Below, piece after piece: positions 47,920-50,725 of a DNA stretch of 64,000 bases (positions within the stretch are counted from its first letter, which is position 1; each line of letters starts with the position of its first letter). This DNA comes from Sulfurimonas sp. HSL-1656 (GTDB lineage: Bacteria; Campylobacterota; Campylobacteria; Campylobacterales; Sulfurimonadaceae): positions 744,001-808,000 of the forward strand of contig NZ_CP147915.1 in assembly GCF_039645585.1 (NCBI RefSeq), in the 5' to 3' direction. A program made the translations under genes and the position numbers. The notes beneath the pieces are model-generated. The model had not been told where the DNA came from. It saw nothing but the letters and a program-made list of their open reading frames with translations, and made no database searches.

Positions 47920-48312
47920 ATGCGGTATGCACTGATACTTATTTTTTTCACGGCACTGTTGACGGCGGCACCGGCGGAGTGGGCCAAGGATTACGACACG
48001 GCCAGGCAGATCGCGGCGCAGGAGGGGAAGATCGTCTACCTCCTTATCACCGCGCCCGGCTGCCGCTGGTGCAAACGCTTCAAACGGACGACGCTCAAAG
48101 ACAAAGCGGTCCGGGAGCGTCTGGCGGCGCTGGCCGTCGGCGTGGAGGTCGAGCGTGACAGCGGCGCTTATCCCGCCAAATTCAAGGCGCCGATGATCCC
48201 CATGCACTATTTTTTAAGTGCCGATGAGAGGGTTTTGGTTAAAATGCCGGGCTACTGGAACATAGAGGATTTTATGTCCATACTCGACGATGTGGAAAGG
48301 AAACGAAAATAA
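47920..48312 (+). CDS. Exported thioredoxin-fold protein
   Basis: This 130-aa protein has a signal peptide (MRYALILIFFTALLTAAPA). A thioredoxin fold follows, with the redox motif Cys-Arg-Trp-Cys (APGCRWCKR) and a short form ending GYWNIEDFMSILDD. It resembles SoxW-like and DUF255-type periplasmic thioredoxins, including the one at 16679. It should act in periplasmic thiol exchange. The stop TAATG overlaps the RidA start by one base. Confidence 0.8.
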   Translation: MRYALILIFFTALLTAAPAEWAKDYDTARQIAAQEGKIVYLLITAPGCRWCKRFKRTTLKDKAVRERLAALAVGVEVERDSGAYPAKFKAPMIPMHYFLSADERVLVKMPGYWNIEDFMSILDDVERKRK

Positions 48313-48686
48313 TGCAGTACGTGCAGACAGCAGACGCCCCGGCGGCGATAGGACCCTATTCTCAGGCGGTGAAGGTAAACGGGATGGTCTACACCTCCGG
48401 GCAGATCGCACTGACCCCGGCGGGCGAGATGTGTGAAAACGACATTACGGTTCAGACGAAACAGGTGCTTTCAAACCTGACGGCAGTCCTTGAAGCGGCG
48501 GGAAGCGGGCTGGACAAAGTGATCAAGACGACGATCTTCCTCGATAACATGGACGATTTCGCGACCGTTAACGCCCTCTATGCCGAAGCCTTCGGCGACC
48601 ATAAACCGGCACGTTCGACGGTAGCGGTCAAAACACTGCCCAAAAACGCCCTGGTGGAGATTGACGCGATCGCCCTTGCGGATTAA
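48312..48686 (+). CDS. ridA: RidA-family enamine/imine deaminase
   Basis: This 124-aa protein hydrolyses reactive 2-aminoacrylate and related imines from PLP enzymes. The family run is intact: PAAIGPYSQAVKVNGMVYTS, GQIALTP, NLTAVLEAAGSGLDKVIKTT, and the C-terminal ARSTVAVKTLPKNALVEIDA with the conserved Arg and Glu. It is coupled to the thioredoxin gene by a one-base overlap. Confidence 0.92.
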   Translation: MQYVQTADAPAAIGPYSQAVKVNGMVYTSGQIALTPAGEMCENDITVQTKQVLSNLTAVLEAAGSGLDKVIKTTIFLDNMDDFATVNALYAEAFGDHKPARSTVAVKTLPKNALVEIDAIALAD

Positions 48687-48698
48687 AGCCTTTTTGGC

Positions 48699-48704
48699 TA
48701 TAAT
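48699..48704 (+). promoter_or_regulatory. Promoter -10 of the rplU leader
   Basis: TTTTTGGCTATAATTCG is a strong extended -10. Transcription should begin near 48711, about 200 bases before rplU. Confidence 0.7.
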
Positions 48705-48721
48705 TCGCCCACTAAAAGAAC

Positions 48722-48885
48722 AGGGACCTCTCTTGAAGACTGAGAGTGTAACCAGAGGATTGCGCTGAAACAGCGGCATGCGTGTCGCTGATGGCTCTCC
48801 TCCATCCAGGCGCTAAAAGGCCTGATCGAACTGATTGTCACGTTTTGATGGGTCGGATACACTCTGAGTCTTTAAGTAGAGATTC
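48722..48885 (+). ncRNA. Highly structured leader RNA before rplU
   Basis: A long closing helix joins 48736-48750 to 48858-48872: 14 of 15 positions pair, with one G-G mismatch, and further pairing extends outward from CTCT near 48728 to AGAG near 48877. Inside are a helix GAGGA (48755-48759)/TCCTC (48798-48802), a hairpin CAGCGGCA (48771-48778)/TGTCGCTG (48783-48790) with a 4-base loop, and a hairpin CAGGC (48807-48811)/GCCTG (48820-48824). It may be an L21-type autoregulatory leader or a separate small RNA. The length and closed-rod shape also allow a 6S-like RNA. Confidence 0.6.
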
Positions 48886-48911
48886 TTTTCTATACATTAC
48901 AAGGAAATGCT

Positions 48912-49220
48912 ATGTACGCAATCATCAAAAACGGTGGCAAGCAGTATAAAGTAGAAGAGGGCGATATCCTCCTGCTTGACAAAATGAGCCTTGAGCCGAA
49001 AGCAACGCTCGAGATCAAAGAAGTACTCGCGGTCAATGCCGGTGAGCTGAAAGTCGGTGCTCCTTTTGTTGACGGTGCGGTTGTAACTGCAGAAGTCATC
49101 AACGAAGGCCGCGACAAGAAAGTCACGATCTACAAAAAGCGCCGTCGTAAGGACAGCAAACTCAAGCGCGGTTTCCGCCGCAGCTTCACACGCGTTCGCA
49201 TCACGAAGATCGCGGCGTAA
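48912..49220 (+). CDS. rplU: 50S ribosomal protein L21
   Basis: This 102-aa protein starts [14 protein letters not shown] and has the basic [19 protein letters not shown] segment and RVRITKIAA end typical of L21, which binds 23S rRNA. Codon choice is highly optimised. AAGGAAATGCT precedes the start. The long structured leader upstream suggests feedback control of rplU-rpmA. Confidence 0.96.
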
Positions 49221-49624: not shown

Positions 49625-50725
49625 ATGTTTGTCGATCAGATCGAATTGGAATTATCATCGGGAAAAGGCGGCGCAGGCTGTGTGGCGTTCCGCCGCGAGA
49701 AATTTGTGACCAACGGCGGTCCGAACGGCGGTGACGGCGGACGGGGCGGGGACGTCTGGTTCCGCGTCGACAACAATACCCATACCCTGGCGCACTACCA
49801 CGGCAAGCATAAGCTCGTGGCGGAAAACGGCCGCCCGGGGCTTGGCTCCAACATGACGGGCAAGTCGGCACCGAAGCTCTTCGTGATCGTGCCGCCGGGC
49901 ACCCAGGTGTTCGATGCCGAGAGCGGCGAGCTGCTGATGGACCTTGTCCATGAGGGCCAGGAGCAGCAGCTGCTGCAGGGCGGCAAGGGCGGCCTGGGCA
50001 ATACCCACTTCAAATCCTCGACGAACCAGCGCCCGACCTATGCGCAGCCGGGCGAACCCGGTGAGACCCGCCGGGTCCGTCTGGAGCTGAAACTGATCGC
50101 GGACGTCGGTCTCGTCGGCTTCCCCAATGTCGGGAAATCGACGCTTATTTCGACCGTCTCCAATGCGACGCCGGAGATCGCCAACTACGAATTTACGACT
50201 TTGACACCGAAACTGGGACAGGTCCGCGTCAGCGATTTCGAGTCGTTCGTCATGGCGGATATCCCGGGGATCATCGACGGCGCCAGCGAAGGGCGCGGCC
50301 TTGGGCTGCAGTTCCTGCGCCATATCGAGCGGACGAAGACGCTGCTTTTCATGATCGACCTGGCATCGTATATGACGATGACCTACCAGTACGAGACGCT
50401 GCAGCAGGAGCTGGAGCGGTTCAGCGAACTGCTCGCCACGCGCGCTTTCGCGATCGCGCTGACCCGCGTCGACGCCCTCTCCAAAGAGGAGGCCGAGGAG
50501 AAGATCGCCGAGATGATGAAGCTGGTGGGCGTCAAGCCGTCACAGCACAGCCGTTTCGGTTTCGATGACGCCCTGCCGTTTTACGAGCAGGACCTCTCCG
50601 ACGAGACGCAGCAATTTGACCGCGAGAAACCGTTCTTCATGGCAGCCATCTCCTCCGTTGCCCATGAAAATATCAAACCGCTCAATTTTGCGCTGCATAC
50701 CCTGATAGGAATGGAGCAAGCTTGA
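49625..50725 (+). CDS. obgE: GTPase ObgE/CgtA
   Basis: This 366-aa GTPase acts in late 50S assembly and stress response. The glycine-rich Obg domain is at the N-terminus ([31 protein letters not shown]-like loop). The G domain has [18 protein letters not shown] and TRVDALS. There is no extended acidic C-terminus. The order rplU-rpmA-obgE is widely conserved. It overlaps proB by 4 bases. Confidence 0.95.

Follow-up and report, generated by a model that had tools for sequence, protein, structure and literature searches.

A predicted leader RNA with a four-way junction upstream of rplU–rpmA in Sulfurimonas sp. HSL-1656 and its relatives

The leaders of ribosomal protein operons have mostly been worked out in Escherichia coli and Bacillus. 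In the 64,000-nucleotide stretch of Sulfurimonas sp. HSL-1656 DNA analyzed here (the window; contig NZ_CP147915.1, positions 744,001 to 808,000), the interval between a TATAAT element and the genes for ribosomal proteins L21 and L27 can be folded into a closed, branched domain. A first-pass annotation of the window offered three readings of this domain: an L21-binding leader that differs from the Bacillus type, a small RNA in its own right that is processed out of the leader, or an RNA resembling 6S. This raises the question of whether the domain is a genuine RNA structure and, if so, what role it has at rplU.

Architecture of the rplU leader

The leader is predicted to form a four-way junction (P1–P4) that is closed by helix P1 and is sited between TATAAT and the genes rplU, rpmA, and obgE (Table 1). 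The first-pass annotation described a closing helix of 15 positions with a single mismatch, three inner stems, a preceding −10 element, and the L21 and L27 genes downstream, and all of these parts were recovered. The helix 48736–48750/48858–48872 consists of 14 Watson–Crick pairs and one G·G mismatch (48742/48866), the inner stems correspond to P2, P3, and P4, and the two genes were confirmed by NCBIfam models. In addition, P1 extends outward (48728–48734 with 48874–48881, with one bulge) and inward past an A·A mismatch (48752–48753 with 48855–48856). A −35 consensus was not found, and a promoter scan gave only one chance-level site (48835–48863). ARAGORN detected neither tRNA nor tmRNA in the window.

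Table 1. Features of the rplU leader and adjacent genes (positions in the window)
Feature	Position	Strand	Basis and remarks
Rid-family gene	48312–48686		Upstream of TATAAT and the domain
−10 element TATAAT of the rplU promoter	48699–48704	+	Sequence; precedes the element in relatives too
P1, 5′ strand	48728–48753	+	Core 48735–48753, basal part 48728–48734; fold and covariation
P2 hairpin	48755–48802	+	48755–48759 pairs with 48798–48802; apical part variable in sequence and length; fold and covariation
P3 hairpin CAGGC/GCCTG	48807–48824	+	48807–48811 pairs with 48820–48824; fold and covariation; similar hairpin in type B
P4	48825–48849	+	48825–48828 pairs with 48846–48849; abuts P3 directly; weakest of the four helices; without both-sided change in type A
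Junction P4–P1	48850–48854	+	Sequence
P1, 3′ strand	48855–48881	+	GAGTCTT invariant in 9/9 type A leaders
T-tract TTCTTTTCT after P1, possible terminator tail	48883–48891	+	T runs after P1 across leaders
Shine-Dalgarno (SD) AAGGA of rplU	48901–48905	+	Sequence; predicted 97% open when the domain is folded
rplU, ribosomal protein L21	48912–49220	+	NCBIfam TIGR00061, E 6.4e-38
rpmA, ribosomal protein L27	49238–49495	+	NCBIfam TIGR00062, E 6.6e-41
obgE, GTPase	49625–50725	+	NCBIfam NF008956, E 1.6e-129; possibly same transcript

Pairing of this length is unlikely to arise by chance, as had been proposed: 14 Watson–Crick pairs in 15 positions were reached by none of 1000 dinucleotide shuffles. When G·U pairs are allowed, 14/15 was reached by 21 of 1000 dinucleotide shuffles, and the observed 18/19 by one. 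The fold energy of the leader corresponds to a z-score of −4.8, with 0 of 200 shuffles equally stable. However, 59 of 780 window segments of equal length, taken from both strands, fold as stably or better, which makes energy alone unconvincing, and the case is therefore carried by the helix and by covariation.

Covariation in two types of leader

Leaders of the same form, here termed type A, were compared in nine genomes, which belong to the genus of the window (G000, G001, G002, G004–G007) and to two other genera (G016, G018). The nine sequences were aligned with the variable loops excluded and compared with 500 shuffles; P2 and P3 of G016 are misaligned in this alignment, and their cells were counted as they stand. 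Pairs form in 88.9% of cells, as against 35–42% when the 3′ strand is slid as a control, and both-sided change occurs in eight pairs (12 cells), of which four are located in P1, two in P2, two in P3, and none in P4. None of the 500 shuffles reaches 88.9% or these counts. The compensatory change that the first-pass annotation had expected in aligned rplU upstream regions is thus present.

In particular, the central part of P1 withstands divergence, as checked on the nine leaders against the refuting case named in the annotation, a helix that relatives break and do not compensate. All 19 of its pairs are formed in the distant relatives G002 and G016 despite changed sequence, 18 in G006, 17 in G001, and 16 in the window and in the three relatives closest to it; the worst case, the partial metagenome-assembled genome (MAG) G018, retains 15 with four broken. 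The partner of the invariant motif in the 3′ strand of P1 varies, mostly via G·U pairs. Cells with G·U outnumber those with A·C (12 versus 8 in type A, 59 versus 12 in type B), which favors the + strand as the RNA. Judged from these alignments, the element is a structured RNA that is maintained by compensatory change. CTGA and TGATGA were also considered as a possible k-turn; since the second motif varies (TGATGC in G006 and G001), this interpretation was abandoned.

A second long structured leader, termed type B, was found in G013, G014, G030, and G031, from two further genera, and has P1, P2, P3, and P4 in the same order as type A. When 13 type B sequences were fitted to the model, 93.1% of cells paired and both-sided change was present in five cells (0 of 500 shuffles). 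These changes are carried by two pairs only, a number reached by 126 of 500 shuffles, and the covariation support for type B is therefore weaker than that for type A; the five seed sequences alone gave nothing clearly above shuffles. Two models were constructed. R1 was built from seven of the nine type A leaders, with G002 (misplaced by MAFFT) and G016 left out. R2 was built from five type B leaders, with L110, L112, L136, and L138 left out (two were tried and misplaced by MAFFT).

Both types have P1 outermost, four nucleotides separating P2 and P3, a P3 that follows, exactly or nearly, the pattern C-N-GGC, loop, GCCTG, and a P4 that follows P3 directly, starts with ATC or ATT, and in most sequences ends with GAT. 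The sole support from the models for homology is a match of R2 to one type A leader, that of G018 (18 bits, E 0.011). From the common layout we infer that types A and B share descent, although convergence could produce the same arrangement. Most type B leaders also have an extra 5′ hairpin, absent in G031, whose arms by eye change in step between species. In L151, L154, and L158 it is located about 40–75 nt before TTGGTGTCGG, with arms CAGGGCAT/GTGCCCTG, CAGAGTGA/TTACTCTG, and CAGAACGG/CGTTCTG.

Distribution at rplU loci

A DNA search of 60 genomes, including that of the window, detected the element in seven. rplU was located in 56 of the 60, and the leaders of 50 of these 56 were read: nine are type A, four type B, and 37 neither (one with only 90 nt of upstream sequence). 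A further 80 named rplU loci, at least 14 of them identical to earlier ones, comprised four type A, nine type B (one cut at a contig end), 18 medium, and 48 short leaders, and one locus with 13 nt only; the short leaders were classed by a pattern rule and only partly by eye. Carriers are nearly all MAGs filed under Sulfurimonas, Sulfuricurvum, Sulfurimonadaceae or Helicobacteraceae, Campylobacterales, or Arcobacter. One type B leader, L134 (CAJYBK010000204.1), comes from a bin labeled Flavobacteriales, where it occurs with an rplU of 88% identity; the contig is probably misbinned.

Among 228 genomes of the family, strong matches were obtained in eight genomes with R1 and in 13 with R2. All 21 are located upstream of rplU and on its strand, which argues that the element is not a free-standing gene. 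R1 misses G016, and the models therefore undercount. Carriers occur in about five of the 18 genera counted in the family search, and most of the family is without the element, which indicates that it is dispensable. Among 398 genomes of the order, R1 matched only four, all of them from the window's genus; R2 matched none, in a sample that lacks a known type B genome to serve as positive control. Weak matches away from rplU (R1 in G011 and G062, and all weak R2 matches, with E above 1e-4) were rejected as chance. The loci fetched for this check, which covered the weak matches other than those of R2 in G113, G083, and G133 and a partial match in G063, contained no rplU by tblastn; the one exception, in G018, corresponds to the type A leader of that genome. 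In G063, the partial match is a near-identical leader at a contig end and is probably an assembly duplicate.

In a midpoint-rooted tree that was built from L21, L27, and ObgE at 110 distinct loci and read for its topology alone, carriers are located outside the main Sulfurimonas clade and are interleaved with non-carriers, which implies several losses or several gains. RidA was not found in the available upstream stretch at nine of 22 loci (some stretches are ended by contig ends) and is about 1 kb off in G001. Since the element is kept where the upstream gene differs or is distant, it is linked to rplU rather than to that gene. On the evidence of the genomes compared, the element is a family-restricted, cis-linked leader RNA of some sulfur-oxidizing bacteria.

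Known leaders and possible functions

At gathering thresholds, Rfam release 15 gave no match in the whole window or in seven relative loci; with E up to 10, the leader (48600–49000, 401 bases) gave only two chance snoRNA matches. Neither the 6S model nor the L21 leader model, both of which the first-pass annotation had suggested for an Infernal search, matches the leader. RF00559, the L21 leader of Firmicutes, is likewise a structured leader before rplU, but its covariance model matches neither 48600–49000 at E up to 10 nor a type B leader at E up to 5. The Rfam L21 leader is noted at rplU in a Paenibacillus study (PMC5670726), and a Shewanella screen predicts, at low rank, a structured rplU 5′ UTR (PMC2659441); the latter resembles the present element in being a structured leader of rplU, in another proteobacterium. 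Titles and the starts of abstracts on rplU leaders, 6S RNA in the class, Campylobacterota cis-regulatory RNAs, and Sulfurimonas small RNAs or start sites, with subscription literature mostly outside the search, gave no description of the element. By comparison with these families, it is a leader of a known kind with an uncatalogued fold, neither 6S nor the catalogued L21 leader.

What we infer for the function of this leader RNA is control in cis: with a probability of roughly 0.6, the element is a cis-acting control element of rplU–rpmA; its dispensability in most of the family counts against this role. The first-pass reading of a leader unlike the Bacillus type fits best, in that the linkage to rplU, the compensatory change, and the lack of an RF00559 match all stand; L21, or L27, as the putative ligand is suggested by gene context.

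The mechanism that we favor is attenuation, though for attenuation by the operon's own product in particular the odds are clearly less than even. The junction (P2, P3, and P4) would bind a factor, most simply excess L21 or L27, and this binding would lock P1. The locked P1 and the immediately following T-tract would then end transcription ahead of rplU and release a leader RNA of about 180 nt; if the factor were absent, polymerase would read through. Ribosomal protein leaders with attenuation, such as the Bacillus L20 leader, in which bound protein favors the terminator, would act alike; here the candidate terminator is the closing helix of the whole domain, and the ligand is putative.

Attenuation is favored by the order of P1 and T-tract and by the predicted openness of the SD. 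At least four T residues occur within 20 nt after P1 in 19 of 22 leaders, as against a background of 12.5%, in sequences that are related and hence not independent. The order P1–CG–TTTTT is present in 13/13 type B leaders, and the distance from the end of the P1 3′ strand to the start codon is 24–39 nt in 21 of the 22. The closing helix and T-tract look like a terminator built from the folded domain; a terminator scan, which considers loops of 3–8 only, does not list them. Masking of the SD by the folded domain was considered and is unsupported for the window. Predicted SD openness ranges from 0.18 to 0.97 in other leaders, and since the SD in the window is predicted to be open in the folded state, masking is unlikely and control of transcription is favored.

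Several observations count against attenuation. An insertion of about 270 nt sets the T-tract and rplU of G004 apart from P1, and a run of four T is missing downstream of P1 in G002 and G016 (together with G004, these are the three leaders outside the 19 of 22). A closing helix around 110–130 nt would be an unusual terminator. In E. coli, rplU–rpmA is reported, in a review, to be unresponsive to its own products (PMC10931766), which also argues against this mechanism. Words shared between the leader and the 23S rRNA of the same organism do not exceed chance as judged by shuffles, so that mimicry of rRNA toward L21 is invisible in the sequence.

The second first-pass reading, a stable small RNA that is cut from the leader by RNase III acting on P1 or ended at the T-tract and that acts in trans, with rplU as a mere host transcript, is unlikely. 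The long, near-perfect P1 duplex and T-tract would give a discrete RNA, RNase III maturation via an intramolecular duplex is known for Campylobacter jejuni CJnc190 (PMC8687705), and the domain of G004 is intact though about 270 nt separate it from rplU. These points are set against the finding that strong matches are always at rplU and never away from it (21/21), and against loops that vary, most of the conservation being in paired regions, in P3/P4, and in the 3′ strand of P1.

The four-way junction is compact, and nucleotides of P3/P4 are conserved in both types, so that it could also belong to a riboswitch-like RNA that senses a small molecule or a signal of growth (e.g., a nucleotide, given obgE) rather than a ribosomal protein. 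Most riboswitch classes precede several operons, whereas the element precedes one only, and no Rfam riboswitch matches above gathering; we consider this reading improbable. A PreQ1 match close to the SD in one type B leader (L119:1464–1497) is far below threshold (21.9 bits versus gathering 39, E 0.02) and is probably due to chance. Little credence is given to a passive 5′ element that shields the transcript from decay: P1 extends nearly to the presumed start of the transcript in several relatives and the SD is predicted to stay open, but any stable hairpin would suffice for such a role, which leaves the conservation of P3, P4, and the 3′ strand of P1 unexplained.

A 6S RNA placed before rplU, the third first-pass reading, is scarcely credible, since the likeness is limited to size (near 165–180 nt) and a long closing helix, whereas the element is a junction of four helices, with P1, P2, and P3 showing covariation, unlike the 6S architecture of one long hairpin with a central bubble, gives no 6S match at E up to 10, and is sporadic, missing from most of the family, and always at rplU. 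RF00013 (6S) was silent in 7/7 genomes even with permissive filters and thus gave no sign of a 6S gene elsewhere in them; this silence is weak evidence because the model misses 6S of the known type in the phylum (one match in 60 relatives, below the cut-off). That match, L059 (G040:C101:4097–4299), scores 29.4 bits, and the Rfam 6S model seems nearly blind in the order.

More broadly, control in cis may represent an undescribed class of leader RNA in one Campylobacterota family, whose compact four-way junction, with a closing helix that forms a terminator, would sense a ribosomal protein or growth signal and set the supply of L21 and L27, with two diverged forms (A and B) and repeated loss or gain; we place this proposal somewhat short of even odds. 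If it is real, control exists at an operon that is reported to be unregulated by its product in E. coli (PMC10931766), and a single bacterial family can gain or lose such control. The presence of short, medium, and long leaders in close relatives makes gain and loss directly testable, and the insertion in G004 is a natural experiment for the leader.

The G004 insertion (L004:1688–1965) has long terminal inverted repeats and lies between P1 and the T-tract with rplU. It belongs to a repeat family with matches in 6/6 genomes of the genus searched, including 22 matching stretches in G006 and six in G000, none of these in the window. The medium rplU leader (18 of the 80 named loci; L075, L081, L082, L107, L135, and others) is about 80 nt long and has a single hairpin, with matching changes in its two arms from species to species; it may be a further type of leader-based control in Sulfurimonas.
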